Positions 22,546 through 28,091 of a stretch of 33,434 nucleotides of DNA are shown here, piece by piece. The stretch covers positions 1-33,434 of the IMG/VR virus record IMGVR_UViG_3300035670_000806; one strand, written 5' to 3'. The DNA is from a virus. A program made the position numbers and the translations under genes. Every line of letters starts with the position of its first letter. The stretch's first letter is position 1. The notes under the pieces are model-generated. The model was not told the origin of the DNA and searched no databases. It saw only the letters and a program-made list of their open reading frames with translations.

Positions 22546-22683
22546 ATGAAAGACTGTGAATCTTGCGCCTATAGCAAGCGCAAATTATCCATGCTCGGAT
22601 TTCGTACATGGTGCTGGAAATATAAGCAGTTCCGCACAATGAAGTGCATCGACTGGGTTGGTCGTAATGCGCGTGACTTATGA
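22546..22683 (+). CDS. 45-aa Cys-rich protein upstream of DNA polymerase
   Basis: ATG 22546, with AAGGA about 8 nt upstream, encodes MKDCESCAYSKRKLSMLGFR and continues to 45 residues. It is basic and has four cysteines (C4, C7, C23, C34), compatible with a small zinc-binding knuckle. Its 3' end overlaps the polymerase start by 17 nt, which suggests translational coupling. No family is recognised. Confidence 0.65.
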   Translation: MKDCESCAYSKRKLSMLGFRTWCWKYKQFRTMKCIDWVGRNARDL

Positions 22684-24058
22684 TATCGAGACATACCCTA
22701 ACGTATTCATTCTCTGCGCTCAGGTCTGCGATACACCGTTTCGCTATTACTTCGAGATTAGCGACTGGCGTAACGACAGCAGAGAACTGATTGAGTGGGT
22801 CAGATCACTTGACCAGATGATCGGATTCAACAACCTCGGATTCGACTATCCGGTTCTGCACACGCTGATCCGCATGGGTAAGGCTACCGCTGCTGCACTT
22901 TACGAGAAGGCGATGGTAATCATTGCATCAGAGGACAAATTTGAGCATGTGATATTTGCATCAGACCGTTATGTTCCTCAGATCGACCTGTTCAAGATTC
23001 ACCATTTTGACAACAAGGCACGCACTACGAATCTCAAAGCGCTTGAGTTCAACATGAGGATGGACAACATCAGCGATCTGCCGTTCCCTGTCGGATCAAC
23101 GCTGACCCGTGAGCAGGTCGAAGTGTTGCGCGACTACTGTTTCCACGACGTTGCTGCGACTGAACGGTTCAGGTTGGCGTCACTGGATCAGATCAGGTTC
23201 CGGGAGGAGCTTGTACCGACATTAGGCGAGGATGTGATTAACGCTAACGATGTGAAGATTGGCACTTTGATTTTTCAGAAGGAATTGGAGAAAGCTGGTG
23301 TTCAATGCTACGAATATGGTAGCAATGGTCGCCAGCCTAAACAGACACCGAGAGATCGTCTGGTCTTGCGAGATGCGATTCTTCCTTGGATTGAGTTGGA
23401 AACGCCCGGGTTCAAGCGAATCCTTGAACATCTAAGATCGCAAGTCATTACTGAAACGAAGGGTGTGTTTGACGGGCTTGTCGCACACGAATATGGTCTT
23501 GACTTCGTGTTCGGTACTGGCGGGCTTCACGCCGCAGTCGAGAATAAAGCATTTGTCGCTACTGACGATCTACTGATCGAGTCGCGGGACGTATCTAGCT
23601 ACTATCCTAACCTCGCAATCACTAATCGTTTTTATCCTGAACATCTTGGTGAAAAGTTCTGCGATATTTATCAAGACCTGTACCGAAAACGCAAAGGGTT
23701 TTCTAAGGGTACGGCAATGAACGCTGCTTACAAACTGGCGCTTAATGGAACATTCGGTAAAGCTGGTGACAAGTTCAGCGTGTTCTACGATCTACTTTTC
23801 TTGTTGAAGATCACCCTGAACGGTCAGCTTCTATTGTGTCTATTGATCGAGAATCTTGTGAAAGTTCCGACTGTCAAGATGGTGATGTGCAACACGGACG
23901 GGATCGAATACACCATACATCCCGACTACGTTTCACAAGCTGATACGGTATGCGACTGGTGGATGAAGAAAACAGGTTTGGTACTTGAAGGTAGCCGGTA
24001 CAAAAAATTGTTCATCTCCAACTGCAACAATTACATCGGGGAGTTTGTCGATGAGTAA
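22667..24058 (+). CDS. DNA polymerase family B, N-terminal fragment (exonuclease and most of polymerase)
   Basis: The ATG at 22667 (MRVTYDIETYPNVF) is used; a TTG 3 codons earlier is possible. The 463-residue fragment has the 3'-5' exonuclease motifs DIE (6-8), NNLGFD (55-60) and YCFHD (157-161). The polymerase motifs are A RDVSSYYP (307-314), B KLALNGTFG (356-364) and C CNTDG (408-412). All catalytic Asp residues are therefore here. The reading frame is cut after NCNNYIGEFVD by the start of an HNH gene at 24051, and stops at 24056-24058. The missing C-terminal part is encoded from 24574. It should replicate the phage genome if the two parts assemble. Confidence 0.88.
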   Translation: MRVTYDIETYPNVFILCAQVCDTPFRYYFEISDWRNDSRELIEWVRSLDQMIGFNNLGFDYPVLHTLIRMGKATAAALYEKAMVIIASEDKFEHVIFASDRYVPQIDLFKIHHFDNKARTTNLKALEFNMRMDNISDLPFPVGSTLTREQVEVLRDYCFHDVAATERFRLASLDQIRFREELVPTLGEDVINANDVKIGTLIFQKELEKAGVQCYEYGSNGRQPKQTPRDRLVLRDAILPWIELETPGFKRILEHLRSQVITETKGVFDGLVAHEYGLDFVFGTGGLHAAVENKAFVATDDLLIESRDVSSYYPNLAITNRFYPEHLGEKFCDIYQDLYRKRKGFSKGTAMNAAYKLALNGTFGKAGDKFSVFYDLLFLLKITLNGQLLLCLLIENLVKVPTVKMVMCNTDGIEYTIHPDYVSQADTVCDWWMKKTGLVLEGSRYKKLFISNCNNYIGEFVDE

Positions 24059-24581
24059 TGATCCGACAGCAGAACAAATTCGCAATACCTGTTTTTATGA
24101 TCCCGATACAGGTTTATTTGTAAGGGTTATGAAAAAGACATGGAAAGGTAACTGGAAGCCTTGCTACTCGATTCCGAAGTCCAAGACCGCCTATGGTTAC
24201 TTTCAAATGAATGTAAATGGGTGGCCTTATTTAGTGCATAGGTTGATATTCCTCTATATGACAGGTAAATTTCCAGAACATGATGTGGATCATATTAACG
24301 GTGATCGCACTGACAACAGATGGTGCAATCTTAGACAAGTGAGTCGCCAAGATAACCTTAGAAATAGGGGACTAGGTAGGAGAAACACGTCAGGACATTT
24401 AGGAATATCCTACGATAAAGAAAAGAAGAAATACCATGCGTATATTGGGATTGGGGATGGTGAAAGAATCAACATAGGTTATTTCGTAACTCTCGATGAC
24501 GCTATTTCCGCTAGAAAGCAAGCAGAAAAAGACTACGGTTACCATGAAAATCACAGCACACGGGAGGGTTGGCGTGGGTGA
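24051..24581 (+). CDS. HNH endonuclease with AP2-like domain, inserted in the polymerase gene
   Basis: The ATG (24051) overlaps the end of the polymerase N-fragment. The 176-residue protein has an HNH_3-type core: LVHRLIF (61-67) and VDHINGDRTDNRWCNLR (79-95). It ends in a DNA-binding AP2-like segment (TSGHLGISYDKEKKKYHAYI, 113-132, and beyond). The ORF fills the whole insertion: removing 24053-24576 joins GAT to GGT and restores VD-GEVKRKG in the polymerase frame. No room is left for a group I intron fold. Its last codons contain GGGAGGG, which serves as ribosome binding site for the next polymerase fragment. Confidence 0.9.
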   Translation: MSNDPTAEQIRNTCFYDPDTGLFVRVMKKTWKGNWKPCYSIPKSKTAYGYFQMNVNGWPYLVHRLIFLYMTGKFPEHDVDHINGDRTDNRWCNLRQVSRQDNLRNRGLGRRNTSGHLGISYDKEKKKYHAYIGIGDGERINIGYFVTLDDAISARKQAEKDYGYHENHSTREGWRG

Positions 24582-24999
24582 GGTCAAGAGAAAGGGTGCA
24601 TATGAGCATAAGGCACTTTGGCACCAAGACGCATCAGCCCTCATCGTCCCGAAAGTAGCCGAGCAGGTATTGATCTATGACAAGCCGCTGCGTCAGACGG
24701 TCATGGAGTGGCCTGACAAGATGGATTTCATGCAGCGGATCAAAGTGCCGCGTAACGGGTTCCTGCGGTGGGGTGACGACACGGTGCAGAACACTTGCAG
24801 ATACTACGTCAGCATCGGAGGTAAGCCGCTGGTGAAGTGGCTCCCACCGTTAGCGAAGAAGCCTGACCAGTGGAGATCATTCTCGGTACAGAGTGGATGG
24901 ACAGTACAGGTATGCAACGATATCAAGGATGCGGTGCTGCCTATCAATATCGAGTATTACTGTCAAGAAATTGAGAAACTTGTACTCGGAGTAATGTGA
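24574..24999 (+). CDS. DNA polymerase family B, C-terminal fragment (thumb region)
   Basis: A GTG at 24574 lies 5 nt after GGGAGGG and starts VGEVKRKGAYEHKALWHQ. This is in the correct sequence order to continue the upstream polymerase fragment. The 141-residue product contains WPDKMDFMQRIKVPR and NTCRYYVSIGGKPLVKWLPP, patterns found in the C-terminal part of phage family B polymerases. A longer frame from 24496 is open but overlaps the HNH gene. The two fragments would have to associate, as with other phage enzymes split by HNH genes. The stop overlaps the VRR-NUC start (TGATG). Confidence 0.8.
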   Translation: MGEVKRKGAYEHKALWHQDASALIVPKVAEQVLIYDKPLRQTVMEWPDKMDFMQRIKVPRNGFLRWGDDTVQNTCRYYVSIGGKPLVKWLPPLAKKPDQWRSFSVQSGWTVQVCNDIKDAVLPINIEYYCQEIEKLVLGVM

Positions 25000-25283
25000 T
25001 GTTGGAAAAACAGATAGAACGGAAAGTCCGCGATTACGCTGAATCAAAAGGATGGCTCACCCGGAAATGGACTAGCCCCGGTCACGCATTCGTACCCGAT
25101 CAAATCTTCATTAGACCTGATGGGCAAGTGATCTTCATCGAGTTCAAGCAGCAGGGTAAGAAGCCGACAGCAGGACAGGTGCGCGAGCATGAGCGTCTTC
25201 GTGGTCATGGATGTCTGGTCTATGTAATCGACAGTGTTGAGGCTGGTAAGGCATTGGTGGATCATTATGATGGAGCGAATTGA
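24999..25283 (+). CDS. VRR-NUC domain nuclease
   Basis: ATG 24999 has GGAG 7 nt upstream and overlaps the polymerase stop. The 94-residue protein (MLEKQIERKVRDYAESKGWL) is a minimal VRR-NUC PD-(D/E)XK nuclease: PD at 33-34, the catalytic IEFK (47-50) and GKKPTAGQ with the conserved Gln (53-60). Phage VRR-NUC proteins act on branched or flapped DNA, probably resolving replication or packaging intermediates. Length is typical of the stand-alone phage form. Confidence 0.9.
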   Translation: MLEKQIERKVRDYAESKGWLTRKWTSPGHAFVPDQIFIRPDGQVIFIEFKQQGKKPTAGQVREHERLRGHGCLVYVIDSVEAGKALVDHYDGAN

Positions 25284-26084
25284 ATGCAGACAATGCACAT
25301 CTTCGCAGGAGCAGGAGGAGGACTCCTTGCAGACCTCATCCTTGGACATACCCCTGCGGTTGCAGTCGAATGGGAACCCTACGCTTGTCAAGTCCTTAGA
25401 GAACGGGCAGCAGAAGGATGGTTTCCAGACCTGTCAGTGTGGGAAGGGGATGTCCGAATGTTCGATCCATCCGAATACGAAGGACGAGTGGATTGCATCC
25501 ATGCAGGATTCCCTTGCCAAGACATTAGCACTGCTGGAAAGCAAGCAGGAATTGCTGAAGGAACCAGATCGGGGCTTTATCGTGAAGTCTTGCGTATTGG
25601 TAGGATTGTTAGACCCCAATTCATTTACTTGGAGAATGTGGCCGCTATCACGTCCAAAGGACTTGAAGAAGTGGTCAAAGACCTGGCCCAGATGGGGTAT
25701 GACGGTAGATGGTGTTGCCTACGCGCATCTGATGTGGGAGCGAACCATCACCGTGACAGATGGTGGGGATTATTTCGCAACACCGACTACTCAAGCGAAT
25801 CAACTTGCTCCGTCTATGATGAAGCACAAAGGATGTCGAAATCTAGGGGAATCAATGTTACCAACTCCGACAGCACCCAATGCGAAGGAGGAAGCATACC
25901 CCGCAGAGGGTACTCGCAACACGCCAACATTATCTTGGGTTCTTGGTGGAAAAATAAACCCGGAATACACGGAGTGGATGATGGGATGGCCTCTCGGATG
26001 GACAGACTTAAAGCAATCGGAAACGGTCAAGTCCCGCTCCAAGCGGCAGTCGCGTTCAAAATCCTCAGTAAAGGGTGGGTGTGA
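25284..26084 (+). CDS. DNA cytosine-5 methyltransferase
   Basis: ATG 25284 follows GGAG by 8 nt. The 266-residue enzyme has motif I FAGAGGG (7-13), motif IV GFPCQD with nucleophile Cys 78, motif VI ENV (117-119), motif VIII-like HHRDRWW (155-161), and the C-terminal GNGQVP (246-251). The target-recognition region is short, as in small phage enzymes. It would methylate cytosine in phage DNA, likely against host restriction. Most of the gene from 25450 also reads as a second open frame with its own conserved-looking protein. It is followed at once by the diverged helicase 5' end (TGATG). Confidence 0.92.
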   Translation: MQTMHIFAGAGGGLLADLILGHTPAVAVEWEPYACQVLRERAAEGWFPDLSVWEGDVRMFDPSEYEGRVDCIHAGFPCQDISTAGKQAGIAEGTRSGLYREVLRIGRIVRPQFIYLENVAAITSKGLEEVVKDLAQMGYDGRWCCLRASDVGANHHRDRWWGLFRNTDYSSESTCSVYDEAQRMSKSRGINVTNSDSTQCEGGSIPRRGYSQHANIILGSWWKNKPGIHGVDDGMASRMDRLKAIGNGQVPLQAAVAFKILSKGWV

Positions 26085-26097
26085 TGCTAACCCCTGA
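25450..26097 (+). CDS. overlapping +1-frame gene inside the C5 methyltransferase (about 215 aa)
   Basis: This frame is open from 25234 to 26097; the likely start is ATG 25450 (MSECSIHPNTKDEWIASMQD), preceded by GGAAGGGG at very short spacing. The product shows segments I know from phage proteins linked to C5 methyltransferases: TWPRWGMTVDGVAYAH, then LPTPTAPNA, then the pattern INPEYTEWMMGWPLGWTDLK. Those patterns normally occur in the C-terminal part of some methylases or in separate genes next to them. Here they are encoded one base out of frame with an intact methylase. It may be a methylase partner or specificity subunit. Translation and function are unproven. Confidence 0.55.
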   Translation: MSECSIHPNTKDEWIASMQDSLAKTLALLESKQELLKEPDRGFIVKSCVLVGLLDPNSFTWRMWPLSRPKDLKKWSKTWPRWGMTVDGVAYAHLMWERTITVTDGGDYFATPTTQANQLAPSMMKHKGCRNLGESMLPTPTAPNAKEEAYPAEGTRNTPTLSWVLGGKINPEYTEWMMGWPLGWTDLKQSETVKSRSKRQSRSKSSVKGGCDANP

Positions 26098-26173
26098 CCA
26101 ACTTCACTCATATCAACAAAAAGCAATCAACTTTCAATGTACTCATCCCAATTCAATGTTGTGGATGGTATGA
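26084..26173 (+). pseudogene. diverged 5' end of the helicase gene, left of the HNH gene
   Basis: Right after the methylase (TGATG overlap), 29 codons encode MLTPDQLHSYQQKAINFQCT then HPNSMLWMV and a stop. This matches the first 29 residues of the intact helicase at 26682 (MLTQDNLHQYQIRAINHQCT) at 20 of 29 positions. It ends at the Trp just before the helicase Walker A. It is therefore a truncated helicase start, apparently interrupted by the HNH segment. The nucleotide sequences differ in many places, so it is not a fresh duplication. Confidence 0.8.
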
Positions 26174-26203
26174 TATGGTTAGTGTTAATCTCTGGGAAAT
26201 ATC

Positions 26204-26698
26204 ATGCTAACTCAATCAAGACTTCATGAATTGTTCAATTATGTTGATGGCAAACTCATTCGTAAAGTTTCAATCAAAGGGTGGAATATTGGTGATGTGT
26301 TAGGAACACCCAAAGAGAAAGGCTACATTGTAGGAGTGGTAGATGGAAAGATGTATAGAGTTCATCATTTGATATGGTTCTATCATCATGGTGAGTTTGT
26401 CTGTGAGTTAGATCACATCAACAGAGATAGGTCTGATAACAGAATTGAAAATCTCCGTCCTTGTAACCACTCACAAAACCTCGGTAATTCACGACCAAGA
26501 GTTCATAAATATAAAGGTGTCACTTTCTGTAAGCAGACAGGTAAGTGGCGTGCACAAATAATGACTAATGGTACAACTCGTCCGTTAGGTAGATATATGA
26601 CAATCGGAGAAGCCGCTTTAGCGTACAACGAAGCGGCTAAAGAGTTCTTTGGTGAATTTGCTTATCTGAATGAGGTTGAAGATGCTGACACAAGATAA
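26204..26698 (+). CDS. HNH endonuclease with AP2-like domain, next to the helicase
   Basis: ATG 26204 has GGGAAA 4 nt before it. The 164-residue protein carries HNH_3 motifs YRVHHLIWFYHHG (51-63) and LDHINRDRSDNRIENLRP (69-86), and an AP2-like DNA-binding C-terminus (KYKGVTFCKQTGKWRAQIM, 102-120). It is clearly richer in A and T than its neighbours. Its 3' end overlaps the intact helicase start by 17 nt and contains GAGG, the helicase ribosome binding site. It resembles the HNH in the polymerase gene in domain order. It is probably a mobile homing gene targeting the helicase 5' end. Confidence 0.9.
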   Translation: MLTQSRLHELFNYVDGKLIRKVSIKGWNIGDVLGTPKEKGYIVGVVDGKMYRVHHLIWFYHHGEFVCELDHINRDRSDNRIENLRPCNHSQNLGNSRPRVHKYKGVTFCKQTGKWRAQIMTNGTTRPLGRYMTIGEAALAYNEAAKEFFGEFAYLNEVEDADTR

Positions 26699-28091
26699 TC
26701 TACATCAGTATCAGATACGCGCGATTAATCATCAGTGTACTCACCCTCAGTCTATGTTATGGCTCGAACCCGGATTAGGTAAGACCATTGTCACCCTGAC
26801 CAGCATCTCACACTTGATCGGTTGCGGATTTCTCAAGGGAGTGCTGATCCTCGCGCCTATCCGTGTCTGCCGATTAGTGTGGCGTCAGGATGCTGCGAAG
26901 TGGAGCCATACTAAACATCTGCGCTTCAGTATGGTCATGGGTACGAAAGACCAACGCACTCGTGCGCTGATGCGTGAGGCGGATATCTATCTCTGCAACT
27001 ACGACAACCTCGGATGGCTATCGGAGACGCTGCACCAGTATTTCATCAGCAAAGACAAGCCGCTCCCGTTCAACGGTATTGTCTATGATGAGATCACCAA
27101 GACGAAGAACAGCAGCACTCAGCGCGTCAAGTCATTACGGAAAATCTTGCCTCATCTGATATGGCGTACCGGATTGACCGGCACGCCTGCATCCAATGGC
27201 TATAAGGACCTGCATGGGCAATATCTCGTCGTCGATGGAGGGGAGCGTCTGGGTACATCCAAGACGGCGTTCAGAACACGTTTCTATCGCAAGGAAGGTC
27301 AGTACAAGGAAGTACCCTATGCGGATACAGAGGAGACTATCAAGAACCTCATCGGTGACATCACCATCGAGATGAGTGTTGCTGACTATCTGACAATGCC
27401 TGATTTGATCGTCAATGATGTCAATGTGGAGTTACCTGATGATCTGCGAGCGATGTACGACAAAATGGAAAGAGACTTTTTTCTTCAACTCGATAGTGGT
27501 ACTGAAGTGGAAATGTTCAACCAAGCATCACTGACCAACAAGTGTCTGCAATTCTCCAACGGGGCCATGTATCCCATCGCAGGAATGCCAATGTGGGAAC
27601 CTATCCACGATCTGAAACTAGAGGCGCTGGAAGACATAATCGAGGAGTGTAACGGTCAGCCAGTTCTGTGCATGTACCAGTATCGTTCCGATGCCGAGCG
27701 GATCATGAATCGCTTCCGGGACTTGAAACCAATCAATCTTACGAACTGCAAAAGCGAGTTGTCGTTAGCAACAGCCATGTCTCGATGGGATAGCGGTGAC
27801 TGTCCGTTGATGATTACCCACCATTTAAGCGCTGGACATGGAATTGACGGATTACAGAAGACAGGTAACACAATAGTATGGTTTGGTTTGACATGGAGCC
27901 TTGACGGTTATGACCAAGCGAACGCACGTCTGCACCGGCAAGGTCAGGGCAAGCCAGTGATCTGTCACAGGATTCTGACACTAAACACACTCGATCAAGC
28001 ACAAGCACTAGCCCTGAACGATAAGGCGAACACACAACAATCACTCAAAAATGCAATAAAGTCTTATCGTTCAATGAAAGAAAAAGTTTGA
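26682..28091 (+). CDS. SNF2-like superfamily 2 helicase
   Basis: ATG 26682 (MLTQDNLHQY) has GAGG 6 nt upstream inside the HNH gene. The 469-residue protein has Walker A EPGLGKT (29-35), motif II VYDEITK (134-140), motif III TGTPASNG (166-173) and, near 415-430, the SNF2 motif VI pattern DQANARLHRQGQ. Phage SNF2-like helicases act in replication or recombination, unwinding or remodelling DNA. The protein is complete despite the HNH beside it, because its first 29 codons are present in a second copy. Its stop codon lies inside the -35 box of the next promoter. Confidence 0.9.
   Translation: MLTQDNLHQYQIRAINHQCTHPQSMLWLEPGLGKTIVTLTSISHLIGCGFLKGVLILAPIRVCRLVWRQDAAKWSHTKHLRFSMVMGTKDQRTRALMREADIYLCNYDNLGWLSETLHQYFISKDKPLPFNGIVYDEITKTKNSSTQRVKSLRKILPHLIWRTGLTGTPASNGYKDLHGQYLVVDGGERLGTSKTAFRTRFYRKEGQYKEVPYADTEETIKNLIGDITIEMSVADYLTMPDLIVNDVNVELPDDLRAMYDKMERDFFLQLDSGTEVEMFNQASLTNKCLQFSNGAMYPIAGMPMWEPIHDLKLEALEDIIEECNGQPVLCMYQYRSDAERIMNRFRDLKPINLTNCKSELSLATAMSRWDSGDCPLMITHHLSAGHGIDGLQKTGNTIVWFGLTWSLDGYDQANARLHRQGQGKPVICHRILTLNTLDQAQALALNDKANTQQSLKNAIKSYRSMKEKV

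Follow-up and report, generated by a model that had tools for sequence, protein, structure and literature searches.

Two overlapping reading frames at the methylase locus

The window, namely the whole analysed stretch of 33,434 nucleotides of viral DNA (positions 1 to 33,434 of IMG/VR record IMGVR_UViG_3300035670_000806), carries on its plus strand two overlapping open reading frames, of which frame 0 (25284–26084; 266 aa) is proposed as the alpha subunit providing the large domain of a C5 methyltransferase, and the +1 frame (25234–26097; 864 nt including the stop) is proposed as the beta subunit. Frame 0 can be further differentiated into motifs I–VIII (FAGAGGG, PCQD, ENV, and HHRDRWW; 25284–25766), constrained in frame 0 according to position-3 differences and dN/dS; an open but unconstrained linker (25767–26012), a shadow of the +1 recognition segment as indicated by dN/dS and a position-1 peak at 25833–26012; and motif X (GNGQVP) with the C-terminus (26013–26084), where frame-0 constraint resumes. 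A PHROG search matches the frame 0 protein over its whole length to phrog_363 (E 3e-55), and a Pfam search matches PF00145 (E 1e-29) over residues 1–168 only. The catalytic hallmarks of C5 cytosine DNA methyltransferases (PF00145 with motifs I, IV (PCQ), VI (ENV), and VIII) are hence present in frame 0, whereas the TRD and motif IX are not constrained in the frame of motifs I–VIII, as they are in a single-chain enzyme. The sequence-only reading had described this frame as a complete C5 methylase with all expected motifs; this description stands for motifs I–VIII and GNGQVP, but not for the TRD and motif IX, which are constrained in +1. Because the Pfam match covers motifs I–VIII only and frame 0 shows no constraint from there to motif X, it lacks the full constrained motif set.

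The +1 frame is open for the 864 nt and contains the motifs first read from it. Its identifiable features are a recognition-type module 1 (ATPTTQANQLAPSMMKHKGCRNL; 25774–25851; alignments A1 and A3), found in frame after motif X in locus L027; a recognition-type module 2 (LPTPTAPNAKEEAYPAEGTRNTPTLSWVLG; 25858–25947; alignments A1 and A3); and a motif IX element, KINPEYTEWMMGWPLGWTDLK (25951–26013), that aligns to the in-frame LNPxFxEWMMGWPxGW of fused methylases and in which W, MG, and P are invariant across 109 aligned sequences. The +1 protein matches phrog_1008 ("DNA methyltransferase"; E 1.7e-16), as do 22/22 members of its alignment, as well as two small PHROGs of unknown function, while Pfam, NCBIfam, and PDB-sequence searches with it gave no match. 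An AlphaFold model of beta alone is poor (mean pLDDT 62.8), and a PDB fold search with this model gave no match. No published description of the +1 protein in phage methylases was found in a literature search.

The best candidate for the beta start is a tandem ATG ATG in +1 (25267–25272), located 14–17 nt before the methylase ATG, with ATG 25267 or 25270 being of the type conserved among relatives. In the relatives, a +1 ATG is found close to the methylase start, at +4 in 99 loci, and in close relatives of the window it lies within about 20 nt of that start, with exceptions that include L038 and L194. Among 126 dereplicated loci in the start analysis, 74 have Asn as the second methylase residue, and 71 of these 74 read [AGT]TGAATGAG, i.e., [A/G/T]TG-AAT-GAG, with the third codon differing in a few; the Asn codon is AAT at this position in 71/74, compared with only 34% elsewhere in these domains. 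As a result, the +1 ATG four bases further on is invariant, whereas the alpha start codon varies (ATG, GTG, or TTG). The alternative start at ATG 25450, put forward when the frame was first read, was rejected, since it is not conserved (L002 lacks it), and the +1 ORF is open back to the methylase start, with an ATG there. The likely beta start is near 25270, which is better supported than 25450, and the frameshifting from the methylase that had been offered as another route to the +1 protein becomes unneeded.

Directly upstream, a 95-aa ORF (24996–25283) appears VRR-type nuclease-like by eye, with no Pfam match at E<0.01. The TGA that ends this ORF is directly followed by the methylase ATG (TGAATG), a junction that suggests coupled translation. 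Further upstream, an HNH_3 endonuclease (23985–24581; Pfam E 9e-17) overlaps an ORF (22658–24058) at its 3' end; this ORF resembles a polymerase or exonuclease by eye and has no Pfam match. Immediately downstream of the methylase stop codon, a short frame at 26085–26176 (MLTPDQLHSYQQKAINFQCTHPNSMLWMV*) repeats the N-terminus of a downstream SNF2/DEAD helicase (MLTQDNLHQYQIRAINHQCTHPQSMLWLEPG; 26670–28091), and a second endonuclease, HNH_3+AP2 (26204–26698), lies between the two, an arrangement resembling the scar of a homing-endonuclease insertion.

Alternating constraint in the two frames

Synonymous shuffling of the frame-0 codons of the window yields a mean of 4.7 stops in +1, compared with 0 in the actual sequence (P = 0.002). 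With the +1 protein as the query, IMG/VR yielded 29 loci, nearly all with a methylase in frame 0 and a +1 ORF alongside; shuffled frame-0 codons leave 4–10 +1 stops, the loci themselves show 0–5, and at each locus no more than 0.6% of the shuffles attain the observed longest open +1 stretch. In the +2 frame, on the other hand, nearly all loci are as expected under shuffling. Moreover, the similarity of the relatives' +1 to that of the window exceeds that of shuffled shadows by Z = 5–10 in nearly all of 22 loci (lowest, 2.9), and this excess, together with the shuffles, substantiates the initial argument that the frame is no chance shadow. In 48 dereplicated loci, 14 stops occur in +1 over the catalytic part against 68.9 expected and 0 in frame 0 over the recognition segment against 131.8 expected, the latter count being partly ascertained by the class definition, while the third frame, used as a control, has 260 against 239 expected. 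The stops in the +1 frame of homologues that would have spoken against overprinting are thus strongly depleted, and an interruption of frame 0 in the VIII–X region was noted at two loci only, L111 and L148. Of 80 loci in an independent set, which was collected through frame-0 catalytic motifs alone, 63 carry a +1 ORF with [WL][LM]MGxP (70 with a relaxed motif), and in 62 of these 63 the +1 ORF is open back to the methylase start. One relative on an E. coli record (L368; PCP07014, 301–1062) has stops in both frames at almost the same place and is annotated as a pseudogene.

The distribution of substitutions by codon position was profiled in 254 gene pairs of 78–95% identity, which are not independent of one another. 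From 25293 to about 25616, the substitutions fall mostly at frame-0 codon position 3, followed by a mixed pattern from 25617 to 25760; from 25833 to 26012, frame-0 position 1, i.e., the +1 wobble position, takes 57–66% of the substitutions and position 3 only 17–22%, and at 26013, where the GNGQVP motif begins, the profile flips back (position shares 0.20/0.13/0.67). Similarly, dN/dS, estimated from non-independent pairs by counting the frames one at a time with each ignoring the other, is 0.19 for frame 0 and 1.11 for +1 over the catalytic part, as opposed to 2.30 for frame 0 and 0.09 for +1 over the segment bounded by motif VIII and TDLK. Over the same segment, the window and its nearest relatives are 62–73% identical in +1 and 30–42% in frame 0; the pair S9-5 and E. 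coli PT62 (94.5% identical) has only 3 TRD differences, too few for the frames to be distinguished. Both frames are under selection, with the constraint alternating at domain borders, and both are kept stop-free throughout, even where unconstrained. The comparison of synonymous change in the two frames, which had been named as the way to check for overprinting, accordingly comes out strongly in its favor.

It could be argued that the +1 ORF is a mere shadow, in which methylase conservation and codon bias generate a similar open frame that is never translated, and the +1 amino acids are indeed unconstrained over motifs I–VIII. This explanation is extremely improbable: it is contradicted by the codon shuffles, by the shift in codon position and dN/dS, and by the existence of in-frame relatives of the +1 segment; the +1 protein matches in-frame methylase C-termini and the L027 fusion, and not shadow translations alone. 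A pure shadow frame was rejected on the basis of the shuffles, the depletion of stops, and dN/dS.

The recognition segment also appears to move independently of the catalytic part, as a specificity module would, a putative role suggested by patterns of sequence identity. For instance, L010 and L007 are 73–78% identical to the window in the +1 segment (module 2 and motif IX), but only 46–48% in the catalytic domain; conversely, L035/L036 are 82–83% identical to the window in the catalytic domain and 62–63% in the +1 segment. The (W/L)PTPxA modules number from one to about six per locus (L009, L157, L032), and by analogy with multispecific phage methyltransferases, multiple copies are possibly several target-recognition modules.

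Fused and split relatives and known enzymes

In a fused class of 17 + 2 loci, whose actinophage members are L282–L296 and L030, the parts seen in the window all lie in a single frame, with the actinophage order being motifs I–VIII, one to several LLPTPxA modules, LxPxFSEWMMGWPxGWVT, and then GNGVVPQQ. A profile of the +1 segment from the TPTT module to TDLK aligns to the fused profile with an hhalign probability of 97.6 (E 4e-12). The PF00145 alignment of one fused member covers positions 5–318 of 324 and therefore includes both motif IX and motif X; an AlphaFold model, likewise of a fused member, aligns with M.HhaI 13–326 at Z 23.2. Because the fused relatives join the +1 segment to an M.HhaI-type fold, the +1 protein corresponds to the small domain, with the TRD and motif IX. 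This in-frame homology and the alternating constraint together support the initial suggestion of overprinting, in which a methylase shares its DNA with a partner or with an alternative methylase module. A further arrangement is found in L027, a single metagenomic contig in which an alpha-like part with motifs I–VIII and X precedes TPTT..SMMKHKGCRNF..EWLMGFPIG within one frame and with no overlap; a beta-like domain fused behind an alpha-like part in this manner points to partners (a Rosetta-type fusion). Two loci in which an indel joins the frames (L124 and L209) were left out of the evidence. In L282, L283, L285, L287, and L290, all fused, +1 holds the first LPTP module or modules past motif VIII and frame 0 the later ones, so that the modules appear to have switched frame repeatedly.

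The same homology bears on the idea that the +1 frame encodes a genuine overprinted protein with a different function, for example that of a regulator or an anti-restriction factor, derived from methylase sequence. Selection on both frames and the long upstream leader of beta would fit such a protein; yet its constrained part is homologous to the TRD and motif IX of fused methylases, and frame 0 would itself be left with neither a recognition domain nor a motif IX under constraint, thereby making this origin unlikely.

In a split class (L018, L157, and L300–L329), frame 0 stops just after motif VIII, and the +1 ORF contains the TRD, IX, and X; when fused and split relatives are scored in the frame of motif IX, their position shares look like those of +1 in the window's class. 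These relatives touch on a third explanation, in which ribosomes change from 0 to +1 past motif VIII and return to 0 ahead of motif X by programmed frameshifting, giving one chain of I–VIII, TRD-IX, and X. The constraint traces exactly this chimeric path, and one shift would be enough in the split class, but two efficient shifts would be required within one gene, and the explanation accounts neither for the open +1 frame across the catalytic domain and the open frame 0 across the TRD, nor for the invariant +1 ATG at the start; it is thus improbable.

Among characterized enzymes, M.HhaI and M.HaeIII have a large domain with motifs I–VIII and X and a small domain with the TRD and IX (PMC3404938), and this domain border is the border between the two frames in the window, although both enzymes are single polypeptides with no overlapping frame. 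The fused actinophage methyltransferases (L282–L296 and L030; PHROG 116/363/1008) share (L)LPTPxA modules and an SEWMMGWPxGW motif IX between VIII and X with the window, differing in having one frame and one polypeptide. The beta gene of M.EcoHK31I is reportedly located inside the alpha gene in another frame, with both proteins being required. The larger polypeptide of this two-polypeptide enzyme is described as holding motifs I–VIII, X, and the predicted TRD, and the smaller one as holding motif IX only (PMC3404938, citing Lee et al. 1995). M.EcoHK31I (YGGCCR) is the nearest known enzyme, with which the window shares the placement of I–VIII and X on one polypeptide and IX on another, as seen from the constraint profile and motif IX homology; the two differ in that the TRD of M.EcoHK31I is placed in the larger subunit, while the recognition segment of the window is in the +1 subunit, the VIII–X region being unconstrained in frame 0. 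The window would therefore be a variant of the M.EcoHK31I kind by motif distribution, with a differing TRD assignment.

M.AquI, a two-subunit C5 methyltransferase (CYCGRG) in which motif X goes with IX (PMC3404938), resembles the window in having small-domain motif IX on a separate polypeptide. Its layout, with I–VIII in one ORF and TRD, IX, and X in a second, is shared by the split relatives only; in the window, by contrast, X is in frame 0, which is open to 26084, and the two ORFs overlap over almost their whole length.

A proposed two-subunit methyltransferase and its distribution

Considering the domain assignments above, one gene in the window probably encodes, in overlapping frames, both halves of an obligate two-subunit C5 cytosine DNA methyltransferase, since the +1 protein corresponds to the small domain (TRD and IX) and frame 0 to the large domain (I–VIII and X). 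Frame 0 would give alpha, the large catalytic domain with motifs I–VIII and motif X joined by an open, sequence-free linker, and +1, initiated at the ATG beside the alpha start codon, would give beta, which would consist of a free-sequence leader, i.e., the shadow of the catalytic domain, and a small domain with recognition module(s) ((L/W)PTPxA...) and motif IX (NPxxxEWMMGWPxGW). The TRD is assigned to beta because the VIII–X segment is constrained in +1 only. The two subunits would assemble into the enzyme, each carrying the shadow of the other as filler, and alpha alone should be inactive. From sequence comparisons, we infer the translation of both frames, the binding of alpha to beta, the need for both, and the setting of specificity by the modules. 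Several findings count against a heterodimer: the unconstrained beta leader of some 150 residues would be an odd burden, beta alone is poorly modeled, the L027 fusion is one contig, frame 0 is broken in L111 and L148, and the TRD of M.EcoHK31I was assigned to the larger subunit (PMC3404938).

Relatives occur in IMG/VR and in 60 phage records, among them phages of Mycobacterium, Streptomyces, Vibrio, Salmonella, and Klebsiella; Salmonella phage S9-5 and the mycobacteriophage Spikelee are cultured phages with the arrangement. Others were found in 153 genome-contig stretches (proteobacteria, verrucomicrobia, planctomycetes, patescibacteria, and archaeal MAGs), 8 plasmids, and 4 E. coli genomes out of 5426. 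The records inspected annotate one frame only; for example, the frame-0 protein alone is named in the two RefSeq plasmid records inspected, and the +1 ORF alone is annotated, as the methyltransferase, in Stenotrophomonas phage SOVA965. Because the same design recurs in hundreds of phage and bacterial loci, most database entries appear to list half of the enzyme. It is fairly likely that a heterodimer from two frames is the usual architecture of the class, that the shadows serve as filler, that exchanges of the +1 segment change specificity, that members have shifted among fused, split, and overlapping forms, and that most annotated members are half-enzymes without a recognition domain. If true, two-subunit methyltransferases from overlapping frames would be common in phages and also present on bacterial chromosomes and plasmids, and M.EcoHK31I would no longer be a mere curiosity; at the same time, activity would be lost on cloning only the annotated product or on recoding it. 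These loci would also form a large natural set for examining how one stretch of DNA serves two proteins through constraint that alternates at a domain border.
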